Translations under genes and position numbers: made by a program | The notes under the pieces: model-generated | What the model was told of the DNA's origin: nothing | The model's input: the letters and a program-made list of their open reading frames with translations, nothing else | Databases searched by the model: none | Shown here: one piece after another, positions 5,843 through 45,658 of the stretch | Position numbering within the stretch: the first letter of the stretch is position 1 | Layout: every line of letters begins with the position of its first letter | Assembly: GCF_001465795.2 (NCBI RefSeq) | Contig: NZ_CP013659.2 | Location: forward strand, 310,001-374,000 | Source: Planococcus rifietoensis | GTDB taxonomy: Bacteria; Bacillota; Bacilli; Bacillales_A; Planococcaceae | Direction of reading: 5' to 3' | DNA: 64,000 nucleotides

Positions 5843-5843
5843 G

Positions 5844-5873
5844 AAAAGGCCTGGTCCGCGGACCAGGCCTTTT
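5844..5873. terminator. Bidirectional terminator between converging genes
   Basis: Perfect 14-base stem AAAAGGCCTGGTCC/GGACCAGGCCTTTT, between the Abi gene (plus) and the MFS gene (minus); it can serve both strands. Confidence 0.85.
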
Positions 5874-5878
5874 GCATA

Positions 5879-7898: not shown

Positions 7899-8582
7899 AT
7901 GAACATACTCGTAGTCGAAGACGATCGGACGATCGCTTCCGGCCTGACATATTCTCTTGAGCAAGAAGGCTTCACCACCGTGTTATGCCACACGTCAAAA
8001 GACGCCAAGGCTACAATCGAACAACAGCTGTCCGCAATCGATTTATGCCTCTTCGATTTGTCTTTGCCCGACGGCAGCGGCTATGACTTATGCGCGCTTG
8101 TGAAAAAGAAAAGCGACATCCCGGTCATTTTCCTGACGGCGTTCGACGATGAAGTGAACGTCGTCATGGGGCTCGATATGGGCGCGGACGATTACATCAC
8201 CAAACCGTTTCGAGTGCGTGAGCTGTTGTCGCGCATCAATTCCGTGCTGCGCCGCTACCAGCGCCATGCGCAGCCGAAAACGGTCGTCGAACTCGGCGAT
8301 GTGCACATCAACATGTCGGACGGCAAAGTCCATAAAGCGGGCAATGAAGTTCTCCTCACTGCGTTGGAATACCGCTTGCTGCTCATTTTCGCGAACCACC
8401 TCGGCCAAGTGCTGACGCGGGCGCAATTGCTCGACCGCATCTGGGACGTCGGCGGCGATTTCGTCAACGACAATACGCTAACGGTCTACATCAAACGGCT
8501 GCGCGAAAAACTGGAAGACGATCCGGCGCGACCGGAACTCATAAAAACAGTCCGCGGCATGGGCTATAAGGCGGGTGAATAA
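7899..8582 (+). CDS. OmpR/PhoB-family response regulator
   Basis: 227 residues: receiver domain with acidic pocket ED at 7-8, phospho-acceptor Asp53 (LCLFDLSLPDG), Thr and Lys in LTAFDD and DDYITKPF, then a winged-helix DNA-binding domain at about 130-225 (NTLTVYIKRLREKL, VRGMGYKAGE). It would be phosphorylated by the kinase two bases downstream. The direct repeats of GTCAC spaced 11 bases before the ABC transporter genes (10078-10104) are a plausible binding site, since OmpR-type dimers bind such repeats. Confidence 0.9.
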   Translation: MNILVVEDDRTIASGLTYSLEQEGFTTVLCHTSKDAKATIEQQLSAIDLCLFDLSLPDGSGYDLCALVKKKSDIPVIFLTAFDDEVNVVMGLDMGADDYITKPFRVRELLSRINSVLRRYQRHAQPKTVVELGDVHINMSDGKVHKAGNEVLLTALEYRLLLIFANHLGQVLTRAQLLDRIWDVGGDFVNDNTLTVYIKRLREKLEDDPARPELIKTVRGMGYKAGE

Positions 8583-14774: not shown

Positions 14775-16064
14775 ATGATGAGCAAGACGAATATTCAATC
14801 CAGCAGAGAGACCGTGTATTTTGTAATTAGCCTGATCTTCAGCATTCTTATTTATATTTTGGCAGCTGTCTCCATTATCGGGATCGGCATCGCCTTGACG
14901 GTGTTTGCGATTCTTTTGTTCGCCAATGTCGTCATGCTCGGGACCATCCGCGGCAACGGCGTGCGCATCCACGAGCGCCAATTCCCGGATGTCTATGAAC
15001 GCGTGCAGACTTTAGCTGCGCAAATGGAATTAAAGAAAGTCCCGGACGTTTTCGTCATCCAATCCGAAGGCGCGCTCAACGCGTTTGCGACACGCTTTTT
15101 CGGGCGCGACATGGTCGTGTTGTATTCAGAAGTATTTGAACTGGCGCGCGAGCAAGGCCAAGACGAACTGGATTTTATCATCGCCCACGAACTGGCTCAC
15201 GTAAAACGCCGCCACGTCTGGAAAAACTTATTGATCCTGCCGGCCGGGTTCATTCCATTCCTCAGTACGGCGTACAGCCGTTCATGTGAATACACGTGCG
15301 ACCGCCACGCCGCGTACGCTATTCAAAACGCGGCAGCCGCAAAACGCGCATTGACGCTTCTTGGCATCGGCAAGAAAACCTACGCAGAAGTGAACGAAGA
15401 CGCGTACCGCGAACAGATCCACACCGAGTCGAATGCATTCGTTTGGCTTGCCGAGGTATTGTCGACGCATCCGCGTCTGCCGAAGCGTATCCAGTCCATC
15501 GAGCGCTTCCATGATGGCGATGTAAGATACTACGAGCCGAACAACGGCAAAATTGCTCTGGGTGCGACATTGCTCATTGCGGGAGTCACCGCAGGCTATA
15601 TCGGCCTCATCGCATTAACGACAGCCGGCACCATAGCCTTTGCAAGCTTCATGCAATTTTCAGAAGCGAGCTTCGCCGACGGGTTTTCAGTCGACGGTGA
15701 AACGCCGCTCATGGTCGCGGCCTCAGAGGGTGATGTTGCTGAAGTGGAAGCCCAACTCGCAAACGGCGCCGACATCGATGCCCGCAATGGCGGGAATGAA
15801 GACGCCTTGATGTATGCGATGTATTCAGGCGATACGGACGTTGTCACCACGCTGCTCGAAGCAGGAGCGGACCCGAACACAACAGATGACTTTGGAACGG
15901 TTCTCGCGACAGCCGTGGCTTACGGAGATTACGAAAGCGCTAAAATTCTCGTCGCAAACGGCGCCGACCCAGCACTCGAAGGACCCGATGGCCTAAGCGC
16001 CATGGATGAAATCGGCGCGAGCTCCGAAGAAGAATTCATGGAAATGCTGGAACAAGGCTATTAA
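14775..16064 (+). CDS. M48-family membrane zinc protease with C-terminal ankyrin repeats
   Basis: 429 residues. Two helices at about 14-55, then an M48 (HtpX/Ste24-like) catalytic domain with HELAH at 138-142 and the downstream glutamate and aspartate in SCEYTCDRHAAY (Glu172, Asp176). A further hydrophobic region lies at about 256-290. The last 115 residues form three ankyrin repeats and a partial fourth, with the hallmarks ETPLMVAASEGD, LLEAGADPN and LVANGADP. M48 enzymes clip membrane proteins on the cytoplasmic side; the ankyrin part probably binds substrate or a partner. This fusion is unusual for a Gram-positive M48 protein. Start behind GAGAGGGAGAAA; a second ATG follows immediately. 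Confidence 0.85.
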   Translation: MMSKTNIQSSRETVYFVISLIFSILIYILAAVSIIGIGIALTVFAILLFANVVMLGTIRGNGVRIHERQFPDVYERVQTLAAQMELKKVPDVFVIQSEGALNAFATRFFGRDMVVLYSEVFELAREQGQDELDFIIAHELAHVKRRHVWKNLLILPAGFIPFLSTAYSRSCEYTCDRHAAYAIQNAAAAKRALTLLGIGKKTYAEVNEDAYREQIHTESNAFVWLAEVLSTHPRLPKRIQSIERFHDGDVRYYEPNNGKIALGATLLIAGVTAGYIGLIALTTAGTIAFASFMQFSEASFADGFSVDGETPLMVAASEGDVAEVEAQLANGADIDARNGGNEDALMYAMYSGDTDVVTTLLEAGADPNTTDDFGTVLATAVAYGDYESAKILVANGADPALEGPDGLSAMDEIGASSEEEFMEMLEQGY

Positions 16065-17418: not shown

Positions 17419-19284
17419 ATGATTATCTATAACGAAAGCTCTTCCAAATTCATCAGCCATGTGCTCGAGCAGCGCATTGAATCTGTTCTTCTGGATCGAG
17501 TGCAGGAGAAGATGAACCATTCGGTTTCTCCGAGTGAAATTCGTTCGTGGACCAACTCCTTGCCTCAAATGGCAAAAATTTTGAGGGATGCTGATTTGAA
17601 AGATGGCACGCATGTCTTGCTCGAATACAAATTACCATCAACTGAAAAGCGGATTGATTTTCTCATCACCGGCGAAGACAAGACTGGTAAGCAAAACGCG
17701 GTCATTGTGGAGCTAAAGCAATGGCAGAAATCCCAGCTGGCAGAAGGCGATGGCATCGTCAAAACCTATCTCGGCGGGCGCAATCGTGAAACGGTGCATC
17801 CTTCCTACCAGTCCTTATCCTATAAGCGCTTTCTCGAGAACTTCAACGAGTCCTTATATGAAGGCACTTCAATCAATTTAAGCTCTTGTGCGTATTTGCA
17901 TAATTACATACCCAACCGTGAATCAGAGCCCTTGCTCGACGAACGCTACCAAAGCTATATCGAACAGTCTCCGGTCTATTTCCAATTTGATGACCTGTTG
18001 TTGCGAAAACGTATTAATGACGCGGTCTCGGAAGGAAAAGGCGACGAAATCGCACGGAGAATTGAAGAAGGACGTATCCGACCCTCAAAAAAACTGGTCG
18101 AAGCCGTTAATTCATTGTTCGAAGGCAACGAGGAATTCATCCTGCTCGACGAACAGAAAGTCGCCTACGAAAAAGTGCTATCCATTTACAATGGCTTAGA
18201 TCTCGAAACCGACCAAAAGCACACAATCCTCATCAAGGGCGGACCAGGCACCGGTAAATCTGTCATCGGCTTGAACCTGATGAATTTCCTGTTAGGTGAG
18301 GAAGCAACAATTGAATACATCACGCCGAATCAATCGTTCCGTGAAATCCTGCGCAAGAAACTGATTGGCCGGAGCGGCTTCGTGGAAATCCGTAGCTTGT
18401 TCAAAGGATCCGCAGCATATGTGGATACACCAAACAACTATTACGACGTCCTCGTCTGCGATGAAGCTCACCGCCTGAAAAACCAAGGCCACATGAAACC
18501 GAAAATCGAAGGTGAAAACCAAGCGACACAAATCATCCGCTCCAGCAGACTCAGTGTCTTCTTTATCGACGACGAACAAGTCATCTCTAATAAAGATATT
18601 GGACGCTTCGAGCTGTTAAAAGAAGAAGCTGAAAAACAAAATGCCAACGTCCATGTCGTCGAACTCGACTCACAGTTCCGCTGCGCAGGCTCAGGCAATT
18701 ATCTAGAATGGCTCGATAATTTGCTATACGACAAGAAACAGGACATCCCGCTCGACGGCGACTTCGACTTCCAAGTCGTCGATTCCCCGCAGGAACTGTA
18801 CGACAAAATCGTCAAAGAAAAAGGCGGCCGGCTACTTGCCGGCTACGCCTGGGATTGGAATAAGAACCCTATAAACGGAAAGTTGCCAAAAGACGTTGTC
18901 GTAGAAGAACATGACTTCGCCATGCCATGGAACGACCCGAACCGCATCGACTGGGCGATCCACCCTGAAGGCTCTGAACAGATCGGCTGCATCCATACCG
19001 TTCAAGGACTCGAGATGGAATATGTAGGTGTCATTATAGGCAACGACTTGACCTATAATCCGGAAACACAATCGCTGGAAGTGAAGCGGGAGAATTTTAA
19101 AGACAAAGGGGCAAGACCGGCAAAACCGAAGGGGAAATATGCAGTCGATCCGCTTGATCAATTGGTGAGGAATACGTATAAGACCTTGATGACTCGAGGG
19201 ATGAAGGGGTGCTATGTTTATTTAGTGGATAAAGATCTTAAAAATACTTATATGGGAGGTAATAATAAAGATAAAAGCCACTAA
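17419..19284 (+). CDS. Nuclease-helicase, PD-(D/E)XK-like N-terminus plus DUF2075 helicase
   Basis: 621 residues. The N-terminal 200 residues look like a restriction-type nuclease fold: RIDFLI (Asp80) followed after about 15 residues by AVIVELKQW (Glu-x-Lys). From about 230 comes the DUF2075 (Schlafen-like) helicase with Walker A GGPGTGKSVIG (about 274-284), Walker B VCDEAHR (about 345), an SF1 motif III-like FFIDDEQVI, an arginine QFRCAGSG and the C-terminal GCIHTVQGLEMEYVGV. Such proteins are frequent in defence islands. GC content is moderate, unlike the three AT-rich genes behind it. The start follows GGGGGCAACC. It stands at the head of the cluster in the same direction, so a joint function is plausible but not shown. 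Confidence 0.82.
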   Translation: MIIYNESSSKFISHVLEQRIESVLLDRVQEKMNHSVSPSEIRSWTNSLPQMAKILRDADLKDGTHVLLEYKLPSTEKRIDFLITGEDKTGKQNAVIVELKQWQKSQLAEGDGIVKTYLGGRNRETVHPSYQSLSYKRFLENFNESLYEGTSINLSSCAYLHNYIPNRESEPLLDERYQSYIEQSPVYFQFDDLLLRKRINDAVSEGKGDEIARRIEEGRIRPSKKLVEAVNSLFEGNEEFILLDEQKVAYEKVLSIYNGLDLETDQKHTILIKGGPGTGKSVIGLNLMNFLLGEEATIEYITPNQSFREILRKKLIGRSGFVEIRSLFKGSAAYVDTPNNYYDVLVCDEAHRLKNQGHMKPKIEGENQATQIIRSSRLSVFFIDDEQVISNKDIGRFELLKEEAEKQNANVHVVELDSQFRCAGSGNYLEWLDNLLYDKKQDIPLDGDFDFQVVDSPQELYDKIVKEKGGRLLAGYAWDWNKNPINGKLPKDVVVEEHDFAMPWNDPNRIDWAIHPEGSEQIGCIHTVQGLEMEYVGVIIGNDLTYNPETQSLEVKRENFKDKGARPAKPKGKYAVDPLDQLVRNTYKTLMTRGMKGCYVYLVDKDLKNTYMGGNNKDKSH

Positions 19285-19329
19285 AATTAGAAAATTATTT
19301 ATAACAATGTGAGGGGAGCTATATGCTCT

Positions 19330-20610
19330 ATGGAAGAAATAAAAATGATAACAAATGTATTTACAAAAGAAGAGATAGTGAGAATTGTTGAAAATTTTAA
19401 TATCAAAATACCTGGTTTCCAAAGAAGTTTCGAAAGAGTACCTATAGAGATGCTACGCTCATACCTAGCAAAAGAATTGAAAGCTAGTTTAACTCAAAAA
19501 AGAAAAGGTAGAAAACATACCACAATTTCGGAAGTTTATGAGTTCATAAGCTTTACATTTGCTAAAAATAACTCTGAAGTTCCCAATCTAACATTAGAAG
19601 AACTTAGTTTTAAAATAGGTGTAGATGTAAATTATTCAACAGGTATTGTTCTATCTTTAATTAACACTAATTTCCCCGAAGTTTATGAAAAAAACAAAGA
19701 TTTACTTATTAATAATGTAATACAAAGCGAGCCTATACTAAAAAATATAATTAGATCAAGTACTACCGATGAAAAAATTGAAAATATAAAAAAGGTTCTT
19801 CTTTCCGAAAATGCCTTAGACATTAAAATAAATTCATATATTACCGAAATAAAGAGTATATATAGTATAAATTTTTACGAAGAAATCTTCTTTAAAGTCA
19901 ATAATAAAGGGGCTGATAGCTTTACAAAGGAACTATTAAAAACACCAAAAGAAGATTGGTATATCCATATTTTAGCTTTCTTAAGTGAGAAAGAAAGATA
20001 CTTAGAAAGTAAGTATAGTTTTCTTCTTCAATACGTCATTAGTTGTATGGAAGAGAAAATTTCAAATAGTCAGATAAAAAGAATCACTAAGCTAGTAGAA
20101 GAGAATACGCACAAGAGTAATAAGTTAAGTGCAGCATATGAGGAAAATAAAAAATTAGAAAACATTGTACAAGAATTTGAAAATGTATCAAAATCTCATA
20201 ATGAACTAATGGAGGAAAATCAAAACTTAAAAATTACTTTAACGAAATTAACAGAACAAAGAAACAGAGAGGAACCTTTTCTGCAATACTATGATTTTTT
20301 ACTGAAAAAACACAGGGCAATTATTATAACGAGTGATATCCGATTGTTTGAAGGAACTCAATTAAATGACTATGTACTGAGCATAGAACATTTTCATCAA
20401 ATGAGAAAAGAAAAGAATGCAACATTCTTATTGAACAAAACTATTCTCATATCCAGGACTTCTTTCATATCCACTAACGAATGGTTGGTCTCTAAAAGAT
20501 ATTTAGAAAAAAATGACTTCCTTTTTCATGAGATATTAGGATATGAAATTGAAGATTATTTAAAACAAATTTTGAAAGTATTACAGAATGAAAGGATGAG
20601 GGAACGTTGA
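19330..20610 (+). CDS. Coiled-coil protein of unknown function in McrBC-like cluster
   Basis: About 426 residues, strongly AT-rich, not recognised. The first 130 residues are helical with RKGRKHTTISEVYEFI and an FxIGVDVNYSTGIVLSLI segment that may be a helix-turn-helix. Residues about 245-315 form a coiled coil (EENKKLENIVQEFENV, MEENQNLKITLTKLTEQ), followed by an alpha/beta end domain with KHRAIIITSDIRLFEGTQLNDYV. The start is chosen behind GAGGGGAG; a GTG start 7 codons earlier is possible. It overlaps the next gene by four bases, so it is translationally coupled to the McrB-like ATPase and likely works in the same complex. Coiled-coil partners are known from CoCoNuT-type McrBC systems, but a link here is inference. 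Confidence 0.7.
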   Translation: MEEIKMITNVFTKEEIVRIVENFNIKIPGFQRSFERVPIEMLRSYLAKELKASLTQKRKGRKHTTISEVYEFISFTFAKNNSEVPNLTLEELSFKIGVDVNYSTGIVLSLINTNFPEVYEKNKDLLINNVIQSEPILKNIIRSSTTDEKIENIKKVLLSENALDIKINSYITEIKSIYSINFYEEIFFKVNNKGADSFTKELLKTPKEDWYIHILAFLSEKERYLESKYSFLLQYVISCMEEKISNSQIKRITKLVEENTHKSNKLSAAYEENKKLENIVQEFENVSKSHNELMEENQNLKITLTKLTEQRNREEPFLQYYDFLLKKHRAIIITSDIRLFEGTQLNDYVLSIEHFHQMRKEKNATFLLNKTILISRTSFISTNEWLVSKRYLEKNDFLFHEILGYEIEDYLKQILKVLQNERMRER

Positions 20611-22673
20611 TTAACGGATACATGAATCAGGAAATAAGCAAAGAAAATCGACAATTAATTGAAGAATGTTACATTTTAGGAAGGTTAGCAGATGATAATG
20701 ACGGAGGTCATTTGCCAAGACTTGGAGCCGAATTAGACAAGGCAATAACGTACCATAAAGATGGAGATGATCGAGTTGTATTTTACCTTACAGCTTTATC
20801 AAGGGAACCAGAATTACTGAAACGCTTGTTAGGGAAAAATAGCAATGAAGTGTATATTTCATTTGACAACAAAAATAAAAGATATTTAGAAAGAATAGGT
20901 TATTACGACGAAGAGAATAGAGTAGATTTTTTACGTGAACATTTTAACGAGAAATTAATCTTATTTAAGCCGATTTTAAATTATGAAACAAAAAAAGGAC
21001 GTTATCACTTTAATTTTGAAATTCTTCTAGTAGAAAAAATGGATACTGACGAGGAAAGAATCGAAACCTTTTTACCAGTTCCGATTCTGAGTCACTCTAT
21101 CCCTGCAACTCGATTTGAAAGAAAGTTATTAGATGGTAAGCCTATAGAATTAAATGATTATAATCATGCATTTGATGTTCCGGAATTTATTATTTGTGAT
21201 GGATACATTTATCAAATTCCTGACGAAACTGTATTTGAAAAATATAACATTAACTCTAATATGTATATTTGTCGAAAGCCCGAGCAGGTTATGCGTATTG
21301 AAATACCTGAAGATTACGAAAGAAACATGAAAATGGTGCACAAAGAAATAGCTTTCACCTCAAATAATAATCGATTAAGTTGGATAGATTTATTTAATGA
21401 AGAGGGTATTTCTGTTCAAGAAATAGAAGATAACAAGAAAGTGGAAAACGAAGAAAGAACACAATTAAAAGTAGAGAGTTCAGTTTCACAAGCTGGATCA
21501 GTAGAAATGAGTGTTGAAGAAAAGGTAAGTGAGGGGGATTTTATATTTCGTCTAGATTACTTAGCTCGAAAAAAGAAACTAAGGTACTCTGCTGATGACC
21601 TTTATAATTTTCATACCTCATTGAAGACATCTAACTTCACTATATTAGGGGGGATGAGTGGGACTGGGAAAACTCAACTAGCTATGCTGTATGCAGAGGC
21701 ATTAAAAATCGAGGAAGGAGATAATTTGCTGTTTATCCCTGTAAAACCTTCATATACTGAACCAAGTGATTTGTTAGGGTTTTTAAATCCTATAACGGGT
21801 GTTTATACAGAAAGTGACGTTGGATTAGTATCCTTCATATATAACGCAAGTCAAAACCCTGAGAAAATGCATATGGTTGTGTTTGATGAAATGAATTTGG
21901 GTCAAGTTGAACATTATTTTAGTGATTTCCTATCTATTTTAGAACTTGAAGGTGATCAAAAAAAATTGCGCTTATTTAGTAAAAAAGCAATTTGTGTTCA
22001 AGAGCATTTTAGATCTGGAATTCATATCGGTGATAATATTTTATTTGTAGGAACAGCAAACTTTGATGAAACTACAAGAGATTTTTCAAATCGTATGTTG
22101 GACCGCAGTAACGTTATAATACTTGAAAAAACAACATTTACTGATGCTTACAAACATGAGGTAAACGAAAATATTGAAAATCCAAAGGATTATGAGAATC
22201 AAGAGAAGAATGAAATAAAAAATCCTGATACTGCAATTAGTTCAGATAACTACAATAGTTGGATCATACAGAGCGGAAAAAGATTAGGTTCTTTAGAAGA
22301 AAAAGAATTGTCAATTCTAGATAAGTTACATGAAGAAATGAGTAGTTTCGATTCGCAGACAGGCGTCTCTTTTAGAATTGCTGAACAAATAGGACATTAT
22401 TTAGATAATATACCTAATGATGAAAAAGGAGTTCCATTTCTAACAAGAAAAACTGCATTTGATTATCAAATTAAACAAAGAATATTATCGAAAATACGTG
22501 GTCATAGAGAACAAATAGAGAAGTTAGTTGGTCGTTTTGATGAAGAAAATGGATATTCGGGAGGTAGACTAAGCATTGTATTAACAAGCGGAGAAAGGCA
22601 CAATTGTGAAAAATCTATAGCATATTTAGAACAAAAAGCGAAAGAGTTGATGAGGAATGGTTATACATTATAA
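20607..22673 (+). CDS. McrB-like AAA+ NTPase
   Basis: 688 residues. The N-terminal 290 residues are unique and may recognise DNA or a phage signal. The AAA+ domain starts at about 330, with Walker A GGMSGTGKTQ (about 347-356), Walker B VVFDEMNLGQVEHYF and sensor-like FVGTANFDETTRDFSNRMLDRSN. The VGTANFDE...LDRSN block is typical of McrB-like translocating NTPases. Start TTG behind GATGAGGGA and overlapping the previous stop; ATG 20622 is an alternative. It overlaps the nuclease gene by 17 bases. By analogy with McrBC, this subunit would form a hexameric motor that hands DNA to the downstream nuclease. Confidence 0.82.
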   Translation: MINGYMNQEISKENRQLIEECYILGRLADDNDGGHLPRLGAELDKAITYHKDGDDRVVFYLTALSREPELLKRLLGKNSNEVYISFDNKNKRYLERIGYYDEENRVDFLREHFNEKLILFKPILNYETKKGRYHFNFEILLVEKMDTDEERIETFLPVPILSHSIPATRFERKLLDGKPIELNDYNHAFDVPEFIICDGYIYQIPDETVFEKYNINSNMYICRKPEQVMRIEIPEDYERNMKMVHKEIAFTSNNNRLSWIDLFNEEGISVQEIEDNKKVENEERTQLKVESSVSQAGSVEMSVEEKVSEGDFIFRLDYLARKKKLRYSADDLYNFHTSLKTSNFTILGGMSGTGKTQLAMLYAEALKIEEGDNLLFIPVKPSYTEPSDLLGFLNPITGVYTESDVGLVSFIYNASQNPEKMHMVVFDEMNLGQVEHYFSDFLSILELEGDQKKLRLFSKKAICVQEHFRSGIHIGDNILFVGTANFDETTRDFSNRMLDRSNVIILEKTTFTDAYKHEVNENIENPKDYENQEKNEIKNPDTAISSDNYNSWIIQSGKRLGSLEEKELSILDKLHEEMSSFDSQTGVSFRIAEQIGHYLDNIPNDEKGVPFLTRKTAFDYQIKQRILSKIRGHREQIEKLVGRFDEENGYSGGRLSIVLTSGERHNCEKSIAYLEQKAKELMRNGYTL

Positions 22674-24513
22674 ACAACAACCTCTGCATATAACGGGATA
22701 TTTTGAAAATAGATTCCAAAAAACTCTAGATATTGTAAAGGTTTGGAAAAATGAAGAAGAAATGGAAATATCTGATTTTCCCATAGTAAGAGAAAACTCT
22801 ATAATTGGTTTGCAATTTTTTGTTGATGAAGAACACCAGTACGATGATTCTGCAAACTTCAATATTCAAACGAATTTATATGAACAAGATGAGAGAAAAA
22901 TGTTGAGATATAAATTAAGTTTAGGTGTCTCAGAAAAACAATGGTTGTATCAAGGTAAAGATAATGAAGAATTCCCATGGAGAATGGGAATTTACTTTTT
23001 TGAAATATATTATCGAGGAGTTAAGTATATAGGCGGTATAAACGTACTTCCTAATCACTTAGATGAAGAGCAAGTATTAACTATTCACAACTATCTTAAT
23101 GAACAGGTCCAAGATATTATTTATGATTTCGTTTATAGTAATAAATCGTCTTCACATGAGAGTGATATCTTGTTGCCTAAATATTGGTACTATGATTATG
23201 CGCGTAAAGTGGCGGATAGATTGGGGGAATTTACATATTCTATGGCAGCAATTAATAAAAACCCTTCTAACCAGATTACAACTGTTTATAAACCATCAAT
23301 CCATCCTGGAATAACAGATAAAAAAAGTATCGTGTGGGCATTGTCAAACAAAGGCTTGTCAAAAAATGCTGGAATTAATCGAAGTGCATTTCAATTGAAT
23401 AAGAGAAAAACGGAAGACTTTGAGTCTCGGCAAAATCAGTGGATAAAAAATATATTGCTCCTTTTGAAAAGGGATGTTCACACTGTATCTAAACATATAA
23501 TTAAAGATCTAAATATATATAAAGATAAATTATATAGTCAAAAAGAAGCGTACAATAAAGCACTAAAAGACAGAGATTATTTAAAAAATAAAAGGGATAG
23601 TGGAGAAAATACAATAAGAAATATTAGCAGTCAGTTGTATATGCTCGATAATGATATAAAAAATACTAATGGTAAAGTGAGCATTTTATCAAATAAATTA
23701 ACTAACTTAAATAGGATGGAAAGCAGATTATCATATTATATCTCAAATACTTTTCTAGATAAGGTATCAAGAGCTAAATTAAAACCTATTTTAAAAAATT
23801 CCCAGTACTATCTTGTGGATTCAATATTTGAAGAACTTTCTAAGATCAGAGAAAATAAAGGCACCGAGAAGCATTTAACTTCGGCATTAAAGCCTACTTG
23901 GCAAATATATGAATACTTTTGTTTGTTTAAGGTTATCAAAACATTTACAGACTTAGGATATTTGTTAATTAGTGGAATAGAAGAAAATATAGGAAATGTT
24001 TATTTTGAAGATTATATTCAAGAAGGTACAAAATTCATTTTAGAAAACGATGATTATGTGATACATGTTTGGTATGACCATTACCATTCACATTCTGAAA
24101 AAGAGGCAAGGGAGAAAGAAGAGCTTTTCTATACTCCAAATCCTAAGAAAAGACCTGACCTTAAAGTTGATTACTTTAGAAAGACAATTGAAGGTGAGAA
24201 ATTTTTAACATCAATAGTATTGGATGCAAAATTTAGCCAGTTAAAATCAATTTACAATGGTCAATATAGAAATAGAGTCACCGAACAATTAGTTGGCTAT
24301 TATCACTATTTCTGTGTTCTTTCAGAGGCGGGACATAGACCATGCGTGGAACGTGTAATATGTCTATATGCTGGAGAAGGAAATAGAAATGTTCAGCAGA
24401 TTCATGAATCAATCACGTATTTAAGATTCCATCCAGAAGTCGGAGAAAATGGCCCCTTTATAATTGGAGAAAACGAGTTGAAAGAAATTCTGAACCCTTC
24501 CAGCTATGAGTGA
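22657..24513 (+). CDS. DUF2357/PD-(D/E)XK nuclease, McrC-like partner
   Basis: 618 residues, AT-rich. The N-terminal 200 residues are beta-rich as in DUF2357 proteins (ITGYFENRFQKTLDIVKVW). The middle carries a long coiled coil (about 275-370). The C-terminal domain has TSALKPTWQIYEYFCLFKVI, then RPDLKVDYF (Asp) and IVLDAKFSQL (Asp-x-Lys, about 522-527), the PD-(D/E)XK active site, followed by the Tyr/Arg-rich RNRVTEQLVGYYHYF. It overlaps the McrB-like gene, a typical McrB-McrC arrangement. It probably cuts modified or foreign DNA when driven by the NTPase. No methyltransferase is present, in line with a type IV-like or abortive mode. Confidence 0.8.
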   Translation: MVIHYKQQPLHITGYFENRFQKTLDIVKVWKNEEEMEISDFPIVRENSIIGLQFFVDEEHQYDDSANFNIQTNLYEQDERKMLRYKLSLGVSEKQWLYQGKDNEEFPWRMGIYFFEIYYRGVKYIGGINVLPNHLDEEQVLTIHNYLNEQVQDIIYDFVYSNKSSSHESDILLPKYWYYDYARKVADRLGEFTYSMAAINKNPSNQITTVYKPSIHPGITDKKSIVWALSNKGLSKNAGINRSAFQLNKRKTEDFESRQNQWIKNILLLLKRDVHTVSKHIIKDLNIYKDKLYSQKEAYNKALKDRDYLKNKRDSGENTIRNISSQLYMLDNDIKNTNGKVSILSNKLTNLNRMESRLSYYISNTFLDKVSRAKLKPILKNSQYYLVDSIFEELSKIRENKGTEKHLTSALKPTWQIYEYFCLFKVIKTFTDLGYLLISGIEENIGNVYFEDYIQEGTKFILENDDYVIHVWYDHYHSHSEKEAREKEELFYTPNPKKRPDLKVDYFRKTIEGEKFLTSIVLDAKFSQLKSIYNGQYRNRVTEQLVGYYHYFCVLSEAGHRPCVERVICLYAGEGNRNVQQIHESITYLRFHPEVGENGPFIIGENELKEILNPSSYE

Positions 24514-24921
24514 ATTTTATTTAAGGTGACGTGATTTGATGAATTATAAAAGATTTTAATAATTGATAAGTATGTTAGTAAGATCAATGAAATTGCCTTT
24601 CTAGTAATACATATTTCTATGGAAGGTATTGATTTTGAAACAACTAAAGATATATGGATTAACATGATTGATTGAATTGTAGAAGTAAATGCCATTACTA
24701 GTGAAATGAGAGTTCGCGGATAATTCTGCGAGCTTTTTATCTTTGATTTAATAAATAGTTTGCTTCTCCTTCAGAAACTCATTACTATGAATTATTTCTC
24801 TTCAATTTATAGATAGTTTTCTAAATGATCTGCTGTTACAACTACTCAAGTGGTAAAATTAAAGGGAAATATCCCCACCTATAAGTGAGTAAATGATTAT
24901 GTAAATCAAAGGAGCAATACT
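24514..24921. other. Gene-free stretch of about 400 bases inside the island
   Basis: AT-rich. A short frame around 24555-24675 reads like protein (HISMEGIDFETTKDIWINMID) but has no start or ribosome site and is probably a remnant. A terminator-like hairpin lies at 24710-24741. Confidence 0.4.
24710..24741 (+). terminator. Terminator after the McrBC-like cluster
   Basis: TTCGCGGA...TCTGCGAG stem followed by CTTTTTATC; the last 15 bases equal those of the hairpin at 16839-16869. Confidence 0.5.
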
Positions 24922-25968
24922 ATGGACATGATGGATAAATTCGGTTTGGATTCAGAGCAGACGCTTTTGCTCTTTAGTTTACAAAGATACTTGGTCGCTA
25001 AAGATATTGAGAGTGAAAAAAATGTTACTACAGCAGAAAAGAAAAAGAAATGGCTCGAATTATGGGAGCAAGGGATACATGATTTACTCACTAAGTCTAT
25101 AGGGGAAACAAAACTCCTGAAGGATAAAGCCTCATTAACAGAGAAATGTCTGGATATATCAAAAGAAGCAGGGCAATTGAGGACACCTCTGTACTTAATC
25201 GTGCTCGAATTATCCTTATTCTCTCCATATTTCCCTTTAGTCGAGCAAGCTTCTGGTGATAAAAAAGAGGAACAACAAATGAAATTTAATTTCTTAGAAA
25301 GAAAGTTAATGAATTTTAAAGAGCAAGAAAAGCATATAAGATATTTTTCAAACTTATTGGATATTGATGAAGACTTTGTATCTAAATATCAAAAAACATT
25401 CAAAAAATCTATTAGGATATTATCTGGAGTGCAGAAAAAATTTGCCGTCGGCGCAGGATTAGGAGCATTACTAATGATAATCACAGCAGGATTGGCGACG
25501 CCATTGATTGGTGGACTTGCTGCGCCAGCTGGTTTATTTGGTGCCGCTGCAACTAATGCAGGTCTGGCAGCTATCGGTGGAGGCGCTGTTGCTGCTGGTG
25601 GGATGGGTATGGCCGGCGGAATTGCTGTTGTGGTCGGAGGCGGCGGTATTTTCGGGGCATTGAGTGGAGGTACATTGGCTTCTATGCTAACAAAATCGGC
25701 TGACTATGCCCTTCGTGAAGGGGCCAAGTTGGAAGTCATTATGAAAGAGATTATCCTTTCAAGCCAAAAGGACATGCGCTTTGCCCAAGAAATGATTAAA
25801 GCCCAAAAACAAGTGATCGGGAAATTAGGAGAGCAATTAACAGAGTTGCAGTTAAAAGAAGGCGATAACATGGAACGTATTAAACAATTAACAAAATCTA
25901 TTATGTATCTGGAAAGGTCTTTGAAGCATTCTCAAGCTGCTTATACTAGTCAAAGCAAAGCTGTTTAA
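24922..25968 (+). CDS. Unrecognised protein with glycine-rich membrane-active segment (module gene 1)
   Basis: 348 residues. The first 170 are charged and helical (LLLFSLQRYLVAKDIESEKN, a TerB-like look but no firm match). Residues about 175-255 are almost only Gly, Ala, Ile, Leu and Met, with GxxxG-type spacing, as in pore-forming or membrane-inserting segments. The last 90 residues are an amphipathic coiled coil rich in Lys, Gln and Glu. The start follows AAAGGAGC. The next gene begins 18 bases after the stop, so the two form an operon. The layout, soluble sensor plus glycine-zipper helix pair plus coiled coil, suggests a membrane effector. Function unknown. Confidence 0.65.
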   Translation: MDMMDKFGLDSEQTLLLFSLQRYLVAKDIESEKNVTTAEKKKKWLELWEQGIHDLLTKSIGETKLLKDKASLTEKCLDISKEAGQLRTPLYLIVLELSLFSPYFPLVEQASGDKKEEQQMKFNFLERKLMNFKEQEKHIRYFSNLLDIDEDFVSKYQKTFKKSIRILSGVQKKFAVGAGLGALLMIITAGLATPLIGGLAAPAGLFGAAATNAGLAAIGGGAVAAGGMGMAGGIAVVVGGGGIFGALSGGTLASMLTKSADYALREGAKLEVIMKEIILSSQKDMRFAQEMIKAQKQVIGKLGEQLTELQLKEGDNMERIKQLTKSIMYLERSLKHSQAAYTSQSKAV

Positions 25969-25986
25969 ATTAAGGAAGTGATGATA

Positions 25987-27261
25987 ATGCCAAAGAAAAG
26001 AATCATCGATTTCAGTGAAGAACTAAATGATATGCAGACCTCCATTAGTGATTTATCGAGCACGATGGAGAGGCTTGATAATAATGCAGAAGAACAATCC
26101 GACCTATTAAAGGAATTAGAACGAAGACTTTCCGATATAGATCCTTCTTTTATTGCTGAACCTGCTAAATTTAGCGAACATCCTTTCAAAGTTTATTCCA
26201 GTCAATATTTCCTTGAACAGTCAGAAGAGATTGAGGAAAGAATTACGCAGGAAGTACATAGCAACTTTCAACTGCTGCCTCCAATGACCAAACTAGATTA
26301 CATAGTAGCAACAATCATAGGAGCTATTGCAGCATTGGTGGATATTTTATTAGTCAAAATCCCCAAAGACGTGACCTACTTAGGAAAGTACACACAAGAA
26401 GGCGGTAGTTTGACGACTTGGTTACGAACACTAGGAGTTAATGAAGATGGGAAATTAAATGGTTTTCTATCGAACCTCGAAAAGAATAGCAAAGTCAGTT
26501 TTGATGCAAGCACAAAGAATGCTTTTACTGAATACGATAGAGAAGTTTCGGGCTTTTCCCCTAAAACACACCGCTTCATGTCACTAGGCCATGACCCTTT
26601 ATTCGGTTTATTATTCGGAGTTTTAGATATAGTCAACGGACGGATCTCTCTTATCGATTCCAAAGGAGCGATCCATCTTATTCCTATTGAAAAATACCAA
26701 AATCCGACTTTTGAAAATATGATATTCGCCCCGTTTCTATGGATAAGCCATATTCTATCGGATGTGTGTACCAAAATGGGAGTCCCAGCTCCGGGGTGGG
26801 GATTGACTCAACTTCTTCAGTTCGGTGAATTCGGTGAAAAAGACAGAACAGTAGCAGACTTAGCACGCTATATGTACTTAGAAGGCTATGACTTAAGGCA
26901 CTTCATTTCGATGGGGACCGTGCCTGGAATTGTTGAGTTGTGCACAAGGATATACTACAAGCTCACTTTGGAAAAAAGCGATCCATTTACACTTACTTAT
27001 TCAAAAGATCTAAAAGAAATCCACAATAAAATCCGTTTGCAAAAACTCTTGTTCACTGCACATACCACTGCTACGGGTGGGAATGCATTGAAGATAGTAA
27101 TGAATCAAGGGAATCCTCTTGCTTTCAACTACCCGCAATTAATCGCATTTACCAAACAAAGTATACAAATGTCTGTAATAAGCACCCGTGATAAAACGAC
27201 AGAAAAGATTATAAGAAATAGGGAACAGATAAATCGAGAGTGGGGAAATAATTATATTTAA
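25987..27261 (+). CDS. Unrecognised membrane-associated protein (module gene 2)
   Basis: 424 residues. The N-terminal 60 residues form a coiled coil (SEELNDMQTSISDLSSTMERL). One clear hydrophobic helix lies at about 98-116 (YIVATIIGAIAALVDILLV), and two weaker ones at about 205-220 (GLLFGVLDIVNG) and 240-260. The block SLGHDPLFGLLFGVLDI and the later RYMYLEGYDLRHFISMGTVPG look conserved but match no family I can name. ATG 25987 is preferred because AAGGAAG lies 8 bases upstream. Both this protein and the previous one have coiled coils and membrane segments, so they may form a complex at the membrane. Confidence 0.65.
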   Translation: MPKKRIIDFSEELNDMQTSISDLSSTMERLDNNAEEQSDLLKELERRLSDIDPSFIAEPAKFSEHPFKVYSSQYFLEQSEEIEERITQEVHSNFQLLPPMTKLDYIVATIIGAIAALVDILLVKIPKDVTYLGKYTQEGGSLTTWLRTLGVNEDGKLNGFLSNLEKNSKVSFDASTKNAFTEYDREVSGFSPKTHRFMSLGHDPLFGLLFGVLDIVNGRISLIDSKGAIHLIPIEKYQNPTFENMIFAPFLWISHILSDVCTKMGVPAPGWGLTQLLQFGEFGEKDRTVADLARYMYLEGYDLRHFISMGTVPGIVELCTRIYYKLTLEKSDPFTLTYSKDLKEIHNKIRLQKLLFTAHTTATGGNALKIVMNQGNPLAFNYPQLIAFTKQSIQMSVISTRDKTTEKIIRNREQINREWGNNYI

Positions 27262-27572
27262 AAATTTATCCATCATATCTCAATCAATTACAGCACAGGA
27301 TGAACTTCAAATATACTGAATAGAAAAATGTTCATACAAAGTTATGGAGTAAAAGTGTTCTTGAAAAATACCATGTTGACTGTAATGTAGTCTAAAGCAT
27401 ATGTAAAACAAGTAGGGAATAAATTGCAAGGGTTGCATTAATAGAAGATGTAATTAAGAGGAGCGCGTGAACCAATAAGGAAAAAGGATTAAAGGATTAT
27501 GGAACAAGGATGGGGAAACATATTTTTATAGAGCCCAAGGTTTTTATTTAAACGCAGAGGAGCAACTTAATA
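27262..27572. other. Gene-free AT-rich gap of about 310 bases
   Basis: No frame with a ribosome site was found. It must carry the promoter of the AIPR gene. A GGAGGAGCAAC-like ribosome site (AGAGGAGC) lies directly before that gene. Confidence 0.4.
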
Positions 27573-29597
27573 ATGGATATTATTGTGCAAAGATATTTCG
27601 ACAAGTTTTTAAGAGAACACCAAATAACAGGAAGAAATGAAAGTAAGAAATTTGAAAAGTTTATAAATCACTGTGTACTTTCTACCCAAAATATTTCTAA
27701 TCTAGAGTTATCAGCTGTCGACACTGGAGAAGGAGATGATTGTTCGACTGACGGAATTGCAATCTCAATAAATAATCGTTTCGTTTCAAACCTTAATGAA
27801 GTTACAGATATTATTAACTATAATATGGAAATCGAAGTTAAATTCTTCTTCATACAAACTAAGATGTCTTCGAGTTTTGATGGGAGTGAGATTCTTAACT
27901 TTGGTAATGGAGTTATTGATATCTTTAAACCTGAAGGGAAAAACCTCTTAAGAAGGAATGAGCAAATTAAAGAAAAAAGCAAGATGATTGAGAGTATACT
28001 AGATAACTTTGAAGCGTTAAAAGAGCAACCGAAATGTTTTTTATATTTTGTTACGACTGGAAAATGGGAAAATGATCAGAACTTAGTTGCTAACAGTACA
28101 AAAATAATTAGTGATTTGCAGAATCTAGAATTATTCAAAAGTATTGATTTTTTTCCTTACGGCAAGCAAGAAATCAGGAAACTTTATGAGTCTTCTAAAC
28201 AGCAAAATTTTGCAGAATTTACTTTGCAAAGTAAATTAGAGATACCCTATATAGAAGGAATAAATGAAGGTTACTTAGCTTTAATGCCTGTTAGAGATTT
28301 AGTCAACCTTATTTCTGATGAAGACACTCTAAAAAAAGGTATTTTCGACTCTAATGTTAGAGATTTTCAAGGCTTAAGTGACAATAGAGTAAATCAAGAA
28401 ATTAATGGAACTATTAATTCAGTAGATAATAATCGTTTTGGTTTACTAAACAATGGGGTAACTATTGTGGGTAAGTCTTTAAACAGAGGTCAAGGAAAGT
28501 ACACGATAAAAAATTTCCAAGTAGTGAATGGTTGCCAAACAAGTAATGTGCTTTTTGCAAATAGAGAAAAATTAAACAGTGATATGTGGGTTAGCGTGAA
28601 AATAGTAATTACAGAAAATGATGAAATAATTAATAATATAGTTAAGGCTACGAATAATCAGACAGAAGTAGAAGAAATACAATTACAAGCTATGACAGAG
28701 TATCAATATCTACTAGAAAGTTTTTATAATACATATTCTTTTGAAGAAGAAAAATTATTTTATGAGCGGAGACTGGGGCAATACAATTCAAGGGCAGATA
28801 TTGAACATTCAAGAGTTATTTCTTTTGAGGAGCAAATCAAATCTTTCTCTGCTGTTTTTTTAAACATTCCTCATAGGTCTAGTAGATTTTATAAAACTAT
28901 TTTAGAAGAGATTGAAAAAAAGGTTTTTCTTAAAGGACATGAACCAATCACATATTTTACAGCTGCTTATTTAAGTTATCGGTTAGAAGATTGTTTTACA
29001 AATGATAGTATTGATCATAAATTTAAAAAGTACAAATATCATATAATCATGTTAATGCGGTTATTAATCACTAAAGGTGAGAAAATGCCACCTTTAAATT
29101 CAGACAAGGTAGTAAAGTATTGTGAAAACATTTTAACTAATATCTTTAATAGTTTTGAGGAGATACTTGAAGATACTCTTGAAATTATTGAAGTTGTAGT
29201 AAAGGACTTAGAGAGTTTTGAAAATAATAAATATCATCACATAGTTAATCAATTAATTATGTATAATGATACCGGTCTTACTTCTCAAGATTTACAAAGA
29301 TTTAAAACCTTTACACATGAAATTGAAGGATATATCATTCCTTTCTATAATATGAGAATTGATGGAGATATGAGATATAATATTTACAAGTGGATTAACG
29401 ATTTAAATGTAGTACTAAGTGAACACAACTTTTTAGAAGAAGTTAAAATTATCAAAGATCTGGAAAAGGAACTAAACGACGAGTCTAGAGAGAATAGAAA
29501 ATTGTTTTCTGATTTAATTCATCAAATCGTAATTGATTTACAAACGTACTGTACGGAACAAATTGAGTATTCTAAACGTTATACAATACTAGATTAA
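27573..29597 (+). CDS. AIPR-family abortive infection phage-resistance protein
   Basis: 674 residues. The N-terminal 200 residues resemble a restriction-type fold (MEIEVKFFFIQTKMS, a possible E-x-K/Q-x-K active site). The central part has the AIPR signature: RDFQGLSDNRVNQEI, FGLLNNGVTIVG, IKNFQVVNGCQTSNVLF and VKATNNQTEVE. The family is named for phage resistance in Lactococcus and is common in defence islands, either alone or next to restriction genes. The C-terminal third is helical and AT-rich. The gene stands alone with a terminator behind it. Whether it cuts nucleic acid is not established from sequence. Confidence 0.8.
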   Translation: MDIIVQRYFDKFLREHQITGRNESKKFEKFINHCVLSTQNISNLELSAVDTGEGDDCSTDGIAISINNRFVSNLNEVTDIINYNMEIEVKFFFIQTKMSSSFDGSEILNFGNGVIDIFKPEGKNLLRRNEQIKEKSKMIESILDNFEALKEQPKCFLYFVTTGKWENDQNLVANSTKIISDLQNLELFKSIDFFPYGKQEIRKLYESSKQQNFAEFTLQSKLEIPYIEGINEGYLALMPVRDLVNLISDEDTLKKGIFDSNVRDFQGLSDNRVNQEINGTINSVDNNRFGLLNNGVTIVGKSLNRGQGKYTIKNFQVVNGCQTSNVLFANREKLNSDMWVSVKIVITENDEIINNIVKATNNQTEVEEIQLQAMTEYQYLLESFYNTYSFEEEKLFYERRLGQYNSRADIEHSRVISFEEQIKSFSAVFLNIPHRSSRFYKTILEEIEKKVFLKGHEPITYFTAAYLSYRLEDCFTNDSIDHKFKKYKYHIIMLMRLLITKGEKMPPLNSDKVVKYCENILTNIFNSFEEILEDTLEIIEVVVKDLESFENNKYHHIVNQLIMYNDTGLTSQDLQRFKTFTHEIEGYIIPFYNMRIDGDMRYNIYKWINDLNVVLSEHNFLEEVKIIKDLEKELNDESRENRKLFSDLIHQIVIDLQTYCTEQIEYSKRYTILD

Positions 29598-29609
29598 ATT
29601 AATGAATAA

Positions 29610-29634
29610 CTACAGGCATAAAACGCCTGTTTGC
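29610..29634 (+). terminator. Terminator of the AIPR gene
   Basis: ACAGGC...GCCTGT stem followed by TTGC; short and moderate in strength. Confidence 0.45.
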
Positions 29635-29779
29635 TAAAATTGTTCAAAATTATTTAATTGAATTTTAGTAGACAAAAACTAAAGCTAGAAAAAGTTATCA
29701 TACTGACTGCTAAATTATAGAATTATTAGTATTTTTATTAAAATAATATAGACCGAAAAAGTGAATCTCAAATTATAAA

Positions 29780-30270
29780 AAACTTTGAAGGATTTTAAGT
29801 GCTTACGAAGATCTTGAAGACAAGCGTTTGAAATATTGAAAGCTTGAAAGAACACGAGATGCGGCGCAAATGAGAAGATGTCCCCCTAAAAAAGTATGAG
29901 CGGCTTACCTCCCAGTGCAATACCTAGCAAAAGCTCTTGCTTCTCAATGCACAATTTATCGAGGACTACTACTGCTAGCCATATCTTTGGGCAATCCCGA
30001 ATTATGACGAAGCCGATGTGAAATTGTGGAGAACCGTACCTTGATTGGGGTTATTGAAAGAAAGTGAGAAGTACCGAGAAGAACTATCAAGTGAAGGTCA
30101 GTTTCGGCATCTAGGCCTTGAAATACTACCATTTGAAAAGTATGAAAGACTTGGCCCAGAGGAAAATTAGCCAGCAGCACCTGGCAGAGTAAGAAGTTCT
30201 AACTGAGGGTTGTTGGAAGTGACGGAATATAACAGTGAATTTGTGTATATACCAAGAAAAGATGAAAAAT
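29780..30270 (+). pseudogene. Decayed 3' part of a homologue of the coiled-coil membrane protein at 56757
   Basis: Base-level similarity to about 57490-57995 is visible along the whole stretch: AGGATTT-AAGTGCT-ACGAA matches GGATTTGAAAGTGCTGACGAA, CTTGAAAGAACACGAGATGC matches CTTGAAAGAGCATGAAACGC, AACTATCAAGTGAAGGTCAG matches AACTATAAAGTTAAAATCAA, and the end (LLEVTEYNSEFVYIPRKD) corresponds to LVEVTEDDQAYAYVPRRE of the intact protein. Frames are broken by many indels and stops. The terminator of the intact gene is also represented, at 30283-30345 with an enlarged loop. Only the 3' end is present. Confidence 0.75.
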
Positions 30271-30282
30271 TGAAATTATATC

Positions 30283-30345
30283 AAAAAACACCCTTTACTA
30301 AAACGTCAGCATGCAAATGCCGAACGCTTAGCAGAGGGTGTTTTA
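30283..30345 (+). terminator. Terminator remnant with enlarged loop behind the pseudogene
   Basis: AAAAACACCCT and AGGGTGTTTT are the same arms as in 58091-58124, but here about 40 bases separate them instead of about 10. Confidence 0.5.
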
Positions 30346-30349
30346 GACT

Positions 30350-30745
30350 TCGTTTCTACTTTACTTCGCTCCAAAAGCCACAATCCCAAAAACCTCCAAA
30401 TACATTTTCAACACACCCAGCCATTGCTTGTCAGTCGCAGCGTCACATGGTCATCCGGACGGATTAGGTAAAGCGCTTCTTGCTTAAATCCTGCGTCTTT
30501 CATTCTAGCTTTCCAAGGAAACTCATGGAGTTCAAGCGACTGCGCGTGGGCAAAGTCGATGAGCTTAGGCTGGACTTTGCCATATATACATGAAGTTGCC
30601 AACCGACTGAGCGCAGCGGCGAGAAGTTATTGCCATTTGCGGTTTTGATCCACGATAAGCGCATGCCACTGTAGACTTTTCCGACTTTGCCTTTGCTCAA
30701 GAGGCAGCTGCAGTAATTGATTTGGATTTGAGAGCACGCTTTAAA
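30350..30745 (-). pseudogene. Decayed C-terminal fragment of an FAD monooxygenase
   Basis: The minus strand matches the last third of the intact monooxygenase at 32632-34161, for example CGCTCCAAAAGCCACAAT versus CGCTCCAAACGCCACAAT and CATTGCTTGTCAGTCGCA versus CATTGCTTATCAGTCGCA. Reading frames are interrupted by several indels. The N-terminal two thirds, including the FAD-binding GxGxxG, are absent. It lies between the coiled-coil pseudogene and the YfkAB gene. Confidence 0.75.
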
Positions 30746-32613: not shown

Positions 32614-32631
32614 TTCATTGCTGTCTCAATC

Positions 32632-34161
32632 TCATTTCGCTCCAAACGCCACAATTTCAAAAGACTCCAGGTACATGTTTAACACACGCAGCCATTGCTT
32701 ATCAGTCGCAAGCGCCACGTGGCCATCCGGCCGGATCAGGTAGAGCGCATCTCGCTTAAATCCCGCGTTTTTCATTTTGGATTCCCAGGCAAACTCATGA
32801 AGCGCCAGCGACTGCGAGCGGGCAAAGTCGATGAGTTCAGGAGTCGCTTTTCCGTAGATATGGATTTGCCAATCGACTGAACGCAGCGGCGCGAAATTAT
32901 CGCCGTTTGCGGTTTCGATCCATGGTAAGCGCATGCCGGCGTATACTTTGCCGGCTTTGCCTTTACTTAACAGGCTGTGGCGGTAATTGATGTGGATTTG
33001 AGACAAAATCCGAAATGCATTTTTGGAAGCGAACGGAAATGTGAAGACCGACGGCAAGACGTAAGGGACGGCGTACTCCCGGAGTAAGGTCCCGGGCAGT
33101 TTTTGGTTGACGATTGTCTGGAATGCTTTGTCGGTCGTCGCGATCAAGCGGCGCGCAAAGGCGATGCGCTCTTGTTCGTAAGTGCCCAATATGATGGGAT
33201 TCGCTTTCCCTTGAACGACCGCTGCGAGTTTCCAGCCGAGGTTGATGGCGTCGCCGATGCCGGTGTTCATGCCTTGTCCGCCGGTCGGGCTGTGCAAGTG
33301 GCCGGCGTCACCCAGGATGAAGATGCGCCCTTTGGTGAATTTTTCGCTGACGCGGTTGTGGACGCGGTAAGTCGAAAACCAATTGACCTTGGCCGCGCGC
33401 ACGCCGATTTTATTTTCCACATAGTCGGTGATTTCGCTGTATTCAACATCGGTGCGATCGTTGAATTCCTCTGGCACGATGCCGAGTATGCGTTTCGTGT
33501 GGGCATTGCGGACGTTCATATAGAGCATAAAGCCGTCATTGTCCATATACATGTCCATCTTTTCCATGTCATCGACCGGCTTCTCGGTTTCGATATCGGC
33601 GACGAAGAACAATTGCTTGTACGTGCCGCCCGGAAAGTCGAGATCCAGCCCTTTTCGGACCATGCTGCCGGCGCCGTCGCAGCCGCATACATAGGCGAAT
33701 TCCGCTATTTCCACTGGCTCTCCAAGTTGTTGCATGACGGTGTTCACGCCATCTTCTGTGTTTTCAAATGAAATCAACTCAGTGTTCCATTCCACTTCAA
33801 CGCCGATCTTGCTTAATTCGTCGACGAGAATTTCTTCGTGATCGTCTTGCGGCAAGCTCAAGATAAACGGAAACGGGCTCTGCCCTTTGCCGAGCTCATG
33901 GAATTTCACTTGGGCCCGCACTTTTTTGCCGTCGCTGACATCGAGCGATAAAATCGGATGCCCGCGTTTGATGTTGCGTTCAGCGAGGCCGAATTGCTCG
34001 TAATGCTCCAAGATGCGCGCGTGCACGGCGAGTGCACGGGATGCGGTGCCAGTTCCTGAATTTCGATCAATGATGCGAAACGGCACGCCTTGACGCGCCA
34101 GGCTATAGGCCAGAGCCAGGCCAGTGGGGCCCGCTCCAACGATTAAGATTTGTGGGTTCAT
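32632..34161 (-). CDS. FAD-dependent aromatic monooxygenase (PheA/MhpA type)
   Basis: 509 residues. N-terminal FAD-binding GAGPTG at 9-14 with DRNSGTGTASRALAVHARILE, the DG motif VCGCDGAGSMVRKGL (about 160) and the second FAD motif FILGDAGHLHSPTGGQGMN (about 283-301), then a thioredoxin-like C-terminal domain. This is the group A flavoprotein hydroxylase layout of phenol and 3-(3-hydroxyphenyl)propionate hydroxylases, which use NADPH and oxygen. No aromatic catabolic genes are adjacent, so the substrate is open. A fragment of a second copy lies at 30350-30745. Confidence 0.88.
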   Translation of the reverse strand: MNPQILIVGAGPTGLALAYSLARQGVPFRIIDRNSGTGTASRALAVHARILEHYEQFGLAERNIKRGHPILSLDVSDGKKVRAQVKFHELGKGQSPFPFILSLPQDDHEEILVDELSKIGVEVEWNTELISFENTEDGVNTVMQQLGEPVEIAEFAYVCGCDGAGSMVRKGLDLDFPGGTYKQLFFVADIETEKPVDDMEKMDMYMDNDGFMLYMNVRNAHTKRILGIVPEEFNDRTDVEYSEITDYVENKIGVRAAKVNWFSTYRVHNRVSEKFTKGRIFILGDAGHLHSPTGGQGMNTGIGDAINLGWKLAAVVQGKANPIILGTYEQERIAFARRLIATTDKAFQTIVNQKLPGTLLREYAVPYVLPSVFTFPFASKNAFRILSQIHINYRHSLLSKGKAGKVYAGMRLPWIETANGDNFAPLRSVDWQIHIYGKATPELIDFARSQSLALHEFAWESKMKNAGFKRDALYLIRPDGHVALATDKQWLRVLNMYLESFEIVAFGAK

Positions 34162-37459: not shown

Positions 37460-37484
37460 ATCACCTAACAAGTATTACTTGATG

Positions 37485-45632: not shown

Positions 45633-45658
45633 ATATTTTAGTAATCGATTTTTGCTTT

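Follow-up and report, generated by a model that had tools for sequence, protein, structure and literature searches.

The 64,000-nucleotide stretch of Planococcus rifietoensis DNA analyzed here (the window; coordinates refer to it unless another locus is named) carries four consecutive genes on one strand: a nuclease-helicase (gene 1), a coiled-coil protein (gene 2), and an McrB-like nucleoside triphosphatase (NTPase) followed by a DUF2357 nuclease (genes 3 and 4). Do these genes constitute a new four-gene defence system, as a first-pass annotation proposed while also hinting at a relative of the CoCoNuT systems described in 2024? Our analysis of the sequences indicates that three of the four genes are a predicted anti-virus system of the CoCoNuT type and that the fourth is a separate gene. 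We consider it very probable that genes 2 to 4 (CnuA, CnuB and CnuC) are a Type I-B CoCoNuT with the mechanism proposed below, and that gene 1 is independent, lying at the border of an exchange site behind which CnuABC was brought in. This assignment rests on the layout of the genes, their motifs, the recurrence of the three genes together, the non-recurrence of gene 1 and the exchangeable nature of the cargo. It resolves the identity of a seemingly new four-gene set, and indicates that a gene can adjoin an operon and look like part of it, yet be a cargo unit in its own right.

Organization of the locus

All four open reading frames (ORFs) are real and intact, at the positions given by the first-pass annotation (Table 1). 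Gene 2 could start at 19309, giving 433 amino acids (aa), or at the ATG at 19330; two close homologues begin at the equivalent ATG, and with this start the gap from gene 1 to gene 2 is 45 base pairs (bp), in agreement with the earlier estimate. Of the two overlaps that had been described among the last three genes, that of 17 bases between genes 3 and 4 stands: CnuB and CnuC overlap by either 17 or 11 bases in all 16 loci measured. The overlap of 4 bases between genes 2 and 3 is found only with a TTG start of gene 3 at 20607 (688 aa); the likely start, ATG 20622 (683 aa), leaves an 11-base gap. The CnuABC operon spans 19330–24513.

Recurrence of the three-gene operon

A protein search with gene 4 listed 26 relatives, gene 4 itself included, and an alignment of 25 relatives was used to scan species genomes. 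The scan identified 14 loci, all of which we take from their genus names to belong to Bacillota. Homologues of genes 2, 3 and 4 occur in the same order in 13 of the 14, with gene 3 split into two ORFs in one (L003; L and G numbers are our labels for loci and genomes). The Heliobacterium locus L014 has a 460-aa ORF at the gene 2 position, with no BLAST match to gene 2 and 16% identity when aligned to the family. Three further loci (L101, L130 and L131) come from a family that holds a known Paenibacillus, here called the second family, and bring the total to 18 loci including the window. The coil gene adjoins the gene pair in all 18 (in L014 by position and alignment only), and overlaps it or sits no more than 11 bases away in 16 of 16 measured loci. 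Three additional loci of the second family (L132–L134) have a weak gene 2 match, at the N-terminal end of CnuA; they are counted among the CnuABC-type loci for the gene 1 comparison below but stand outside the 18 strong loci. The 16-locus counts of motifs, overlaps and identities leave out L003, L129, L131 and L132–L134.

The operon is sparsely distributed. Of 398 genomes sampled evenly from the class, four had CnuA at an E value (E) of 1e-8. Full-length CnuA was found in 3 of 261 genomes of the window's order (the window's own, G223 and G244); among the window's genus, it occurs only in the window's own genome. Within the order, CnuA matches were obtained in 17 genomes, 14 of them weak (E 6.6e-6 or worse), located in and around the coil and left uncounted. 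Gene 4 matches were obtained in 18 genomes; 15 of these are more distant and were likewise left uncounted. The second family contains CnuA in 7 of 344 genomes, three of these matches being weak. With gene 2 alone as query, three proteins were listed, one of them the window's own. When the CnuA alignment was used instead, the listing comprised only the window's protein and one from Heliobacterium; the locus copy of the latter (L014) was already in the alignment, which makes that match circular. On plasmids, seven relatives of gene 3 were found, the best at 54%.

Features of CnuA, CnuB and CnuC

Gene 3 matches AAA_5 of Pfam (E 6e-6) and contains Walker A (GGMSGTGK), Walker B (DE) and an NFDE motif of the NxD type; all three are present in 16 of 16 loci, the last as NFDE, NIDE or NLDE. 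A sequence search of solved structures with gene 3 found only Escherichia coli McrB, and McrB is also the fold match of the CnuB model, covering mainly the NTPase part. The NTPase stretch (residues 321–460) matches PDC-M26A of PADLOC at E 6e-38. In the model, the N-terminal region is beta-rich, and the part ahead of the NTPase has short helices only (up to 21 residues, at 265–285), residues 276–298 being of low confidence.

For gene 4, the Pfam match to PF04411 (PDDEXK_7) is below the cut-off (E 0.022); among its 25 listed relatives, PF09823 (DUF2357) is pre-computed in five and PF04411 in four. The nuclease residues P500, D501, D523 and Q544 are retained in 16 of 16 loci and K525 in 15 (R in L006), and the motif looks intact in the window. 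No PADLOC match was found for gene 4 up to E 0.1, and its sequence matches to solved structures were chance coil matches, which we rejected. These data support the earlier description of genes 3 and 4 as an McrB-like NTPase with a DUF2357/PD-(D/E)xK partner. PF10592 (AIPR), which had been put forward for checking, matches a different gene farther downstream (Table 1).

Gene 2 had been called an unrecognized coiled-coil protein, and so it proved: neither Pfam nor PADLOC gave a match up to E 0.1, and a Foldseek comparison of its model gave none at E 0.001. The model (predicted local distance difference test, pLDDT, 87) consists of N-terminal helices, a coil of about 100 residues (227–327) and a C-terminal alpha/beta domain. 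The fold comparison barely covered the helical N-terminal region; the C-terminal domain is receiver-like, without an invariant Asp. Over 120 genome pairs from 16 loci, mean identities were 23% for CnuA, 34% for CnuC and 51% for CnuB, with CnuA the least conserved component in every one of the 120 pairs. The middle and coil of CnuA are most variable (about 18% identity), and both ends retain about 27%. The divergence of CnuA would fit a fast-changing sensor or adaptor, although a coil is expected to vary anyway. Such divergence, which may point to a sensor engaged in an arms race, offers a testable point on Type I-B CoCoNuT-like systems, and the receiver-like domain without an invariant phosphoacceptor offers a second.

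Comparison with known systems

The Type I-B CoCoNuT is a three-component relative of McrBC, composed of CnuA, CnuB and CnuC (PMC11090510). Genes 2 to 4 fit this type in layout, motif and distribution, bearing out the hint of a CoCoNuT relative: they share with it a separate coiled-coil gene beside CnuB and CnuC (18 loci), an McrB-like NxD(E) NTPase without a coil of its own, a DUF2357/PD-(D/E)xK partner and occurrence in Bacillota. In Type I-B the NxD signature usually has E or D as its next residue, and the type is mainly one of Bacillota. Comparison of the accessory domains is less direct. Type I-B CnuA has pyrin/CARD-like N-terminal and receiver C-terminal domains, to be set beside the helical end and the receiver-like end found here, the latter with no invariant Asp; Type I-B CnuB has a cold-shock-like OB fold, often with a YTH-like domain, where the window CnuB has its beta-rich N terminus; and Type I-B CnuC has an N-terminal Ig-like domain. 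The window also differs in having gene 1 upstream, and the word 'Schlafen' is absent from the main text of PMC11090510. There is a small probability that genes 2 to 4 lie outside Type I-B proper and form a CoCoNuT-like sister branch within the NxD clade that has a CnuA of its own. The domain identities of CnuA and the accessory domains of CnuB and CnuC are putative, which leaves room for such a branch; layout, motif, the lack of a CnuB coil, the nuclease and the phylum, however, all agree with Type I-B.

With E. coli McrBC the locus shares an AAA+ NTPase, structurally matched to McrB, and a DUF2357/PD-(D/E)xK nuclease, but it has the additional CnuA and, in 16 of 16 loci, NxD in place of the NxxD GTPase signature. 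The likeness to PDC-M26A is confined to the NTPase stretch of gene 3, the lack of PADLOC matches extending to both genes 2 and 4.

Separation of gene 1 from CnuABC

Gene 1 matches PF09848 of Pfam (a model now named SLFN-g3_helicase) over residues 267–604 with E 3e-87. Its N-terminal PD-(D/E)xK motif (E69/D80/E98xK100) and its GGPGTGKS motif are unchanged in all 12 homologues aligned. PADLOC matches were obtained in partial stretches only, to PDC-S41 (E 1e-16; three stretches, the best at residues 6–87), AbiO (E 2e-15) and Nhi (E 1e-13). The titles and abstracts of the papers listed on PDC-M26 and PDC-S41, on PADLOC candidates in general, and on Schlafen and DUF2075 proteins in relation to phages contained nothing on these genes. 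Four relatives of gene 1, at 25–39% identity, are found in phages.

We compared twelve gene 1 queries with 21 fetched CnuABC-type loci, 20 of them distinct (L129 and L010, being one contig, were treated as a single locus) and the window excluded. An intact gene 1 was found in one (L101) and a broken one in another (L002, Filibacter); the remaining 18 had no trace, among them L003, whose 455 bp of upstream sequence is too short for judgment, and L013, with 2.3 kilobases (kb) upstream. With the window included, there are 21 distinct loci, of which two have an intact gene 1 next to CnuABC and one has a remnant. Conversely, gene 1-like proteins occur at E 1e-30 in 89 of 261 genomes of the window's order, distant paralogues included, and full-length copies of 90–96% identity occur without CnuA in six genomes of the same genus (G119, G121, G092, G112, G109 and G080). 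In G112 (L093, 308–8826), gene 1 (90%) is followed by a GmrSD-HNH-related protein and a different McrB/DUF2357 pair without CnuA. Because co-occurrence is rare and close copies exist without CnuA, gene 1 is to be regarded as separate from CnuABC, and the proposal of a new four-gene system is not sustained. Rare co-occurrence was the outcome that the first-pass annotation itself had named as refuting its proposal, and it applies to gene 1.

We therefore judge it quite improbable that the nuclease-helicase acts with CnuABC in a true four-gene system, for example by opening or degrading CnuABC-marked DNA. Such a system would be consistent with the 45-bp spacing on the same strand, with the complete homologue (39.7% identity) 238 bp upstream of CnuABC in L101, which belongs to another family, and with the broken homologue upstream of CnuABC in Filibacter. 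It is opposed by the absences and the CnuA-free copies just described, by the free variation of the neighbours of gene 1, and by L130, whose CnuA is 87% identical to that of L101 and yet has no gene 1. Least probable of all, and scarcely credible, is an ordinary two-gene McrBC-type restriction system to which the coil gene is merely an unrelated neighbour: genes 3 and 4 do form an McrB/McrC-like pair and more distant pairs exist in the same family (such as L019, L020 and L093), but the coil gene accompanies the pair in all 18 loci and the motif is NxD rather than NxxD.

Exchangeable cargo behind gene 1

The DNA comparisons place gene 1 at the border of a variable region. When the window was compared with eleven relatives holding gene 1 or pieces of it (L090–L099 and L102), the alignment stopped at 19220–19245 in all eleven, a position corresponding to the last codons of gene 1 (the junction was aligned for seven relatives). 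In three genomes (G118, G119 and G121) similarity restarts at about 30.36 kb, with different genes between. G093 has the same flanks but gene 1 is reduced to its first 37 bases (to 17455), the border there being the 5' end, and in this genome gene 1 itself belongs to the variable part. Among ten fetched genomes, both flanks reach the border only in G093, and the left flank reaches 17394 in G120; it is absent from the fetched stretch in the other eight. G094 contains the DNA of the Bunzi-like pair (window 24769–27250, 91.7%) without CnuABC, and we therefore consider this pair a cargo unit of its own.

A similar border was found in the second family. Similarity between the L101 copy and ten genomes ends in every case at 7921–8018, around the stop codon of gene 1 (7933), and restarts at 13.48–13.60 kb in three (L154, L157 and L158); the interval between these borders in L101 contains CnuABC. 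In L160 the L101 stretch at 13483 matches on the other side of gene 1, and this locus was excluded from the shared right flank. Gene 1 is present at E 1e-100 in 65 of 344 genomes of this family; its ten closest relatives there (91–97%) have no adjoining CnuA, and G735 contains gene 1 and CnuA 0.79 megabases apart. Gene 1 is thus positioned at the cargo border, and CnuABC, the Bunzi-like pair and the AbiU-like gene are exchangeable cargo downstream of it.

Table 1. Features of the window from gene 1 to the right border of the cargo.
Feature	Position	Strand	Description	Basis
Gene 1	17419-19284	+	621 aa; PD-(D/E)xK nuclease domain and Schlafen-group-3 (formerly DUF2075) helicase; separate island gene	
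Gene 2	19330-20610	+	426 aa; CnuA-like separate coiled-coil protein	Homologues, model, fold comparison
Gene 3	20607-22673	+	CnuB/McrB-like AAA+ NTPase; likely start ATG 20622	AAA_5, McrB structures, alignment, motifs
Gene 4	22657-24513	+	618 aa; CnuC/McrC-like DUF2357, coil and PD-(D/E)xK nuclease	Alignment, relatives, motifs
Cargo interval	19245-30362	none	CnuABC, Bunzi-like pair and AbiU-like gene	DNA comparison with G118, G119, G121, G093
Bunzi-like gene pair	24922-27261	+	Separate cargo	PADLOC: second gene BnzB-like, E 4e-66; first gene PDC-M09A, E 4e-12
AbiU/AIPR-family gene	27573-29597	+	Separate cargo	PADLOC AbiU, E 1e-114; PF10592, E 1e-42

We chose 28 cargo proteins from the relatives of gene 1 for PADLOC analysis, and 21 were matched (5 of 8 at E 1e-3, 7 of 10 at E 1e-3 and 9 of 10 at E 1e-5), although some of the matches are weak. 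Represented among the 21 are SspC, SspD, a Gabija-like UvrD helicase together with a methyltransferase, a type I restriction enzyme, a retron phosphoribosyltransferase, LmuA/LmuB, AbiH and a dGTPase; one GmrSD-HNH protein was recognized by Pfam. Evidence for a common operon of gene 1 and its cargo is mixed. In 5 of 9 close relatives (L090–L098), gene 1 is followed within 33 bp by an ORF on its own strand. For the ten relatives in the second family, no same-strand ORF comes closer than 250 bp to gene 1; such an ORF lies at 256–1040 bp in five, an opposite-strand ORF comes first in four, and the contig ends in one.

It is possible, although we consider it unlikely, that exchangeable defence cassettes in the two families share the nuclease-helicase as their leader gene, with CnuABC, Gabija-like, Ssp-like, type I restriction, retron-like, Lamassu-like and other cargo behind it; its role might then be to anchor recombination or to give interchangeable effectors a common front end. 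As a border gene in two families, the nuclease-helicase provides a simple route to more defence genes, by way of the genes behind it. Titles and abstracts of the papers listed on defence hotspots and Paenibacillus contained nothing on these genes.

Proposed mechanism of CnuABC

In McrBC, McrB forms a ring, and McrC binds it through DUF2357, stimulates hydrolysis and cuts. McrBC-type action is also described in PMC11090510. By analogy, we infer that CnuB, with its NxD-type AAA+ NTPase and beta-rich N-terminal region, would form a ring on which CnuC would dock by its DUF2357/coil part, stimulating nucleoside triphosphate hydrolysis, and that the PD-(D/E)xK domain of CnuC would then cut the bound nucleic acid. 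CnuA is likely to be a sensor or scaffold: with its helical N-terminal domain, coiled coil and receiver-like alpha/beta end, it would sense or scaffold on an infection signal and recruit or license the CnuB ring. Sensing by CnuA, the target and antiphage defence by the operon are likewise predictions. The target may be DNA or RNA, and the outcome may be clearance or cell death. CoCoNuTs are predicted to target RNA, and many might also target DNA via their McrC nucleases (PMC11090510). The listings and passages of the papers located contained no phage assay of a Type I-III CoCoNuT. In passages of a 2025 preprint (PMC12458937), Druantia I and II, cited as protective, are counted as Type IV CoCoNuTs.

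Other features of the island

The left flank carries an M48 peptidase-ankyrin repeat fusion (window 14775–16064), which is also found upstream of gene 1 in L090, L091 and L099. In L101, a small MazG-like gene (5678–6022) lies 18 bp upstream of gene 1, in a stretch that is conserved together with gene 1 in ten relatives. At the right cargo edge, window 30352–30733 is a second copy of the end fragment of a FAD-monooxygenase gene, and it forms a direct repeat (79–82%) with 32623–33003. Farther right, at 37640–45632, lies a gene set that we take to be Wadjet-like, encoding DUF2397 and DUF2398 proteins, an SbcC-like protein of 1370 aa and a protein of 419 aa. Three segments (window 36862–37462, 45657–45932 and 50999–51392) match one place in G119 and in G118; they represent a repeated gene fragment on either side of the Wadjet-like set and may be a trace of the way in which that cargo came in.

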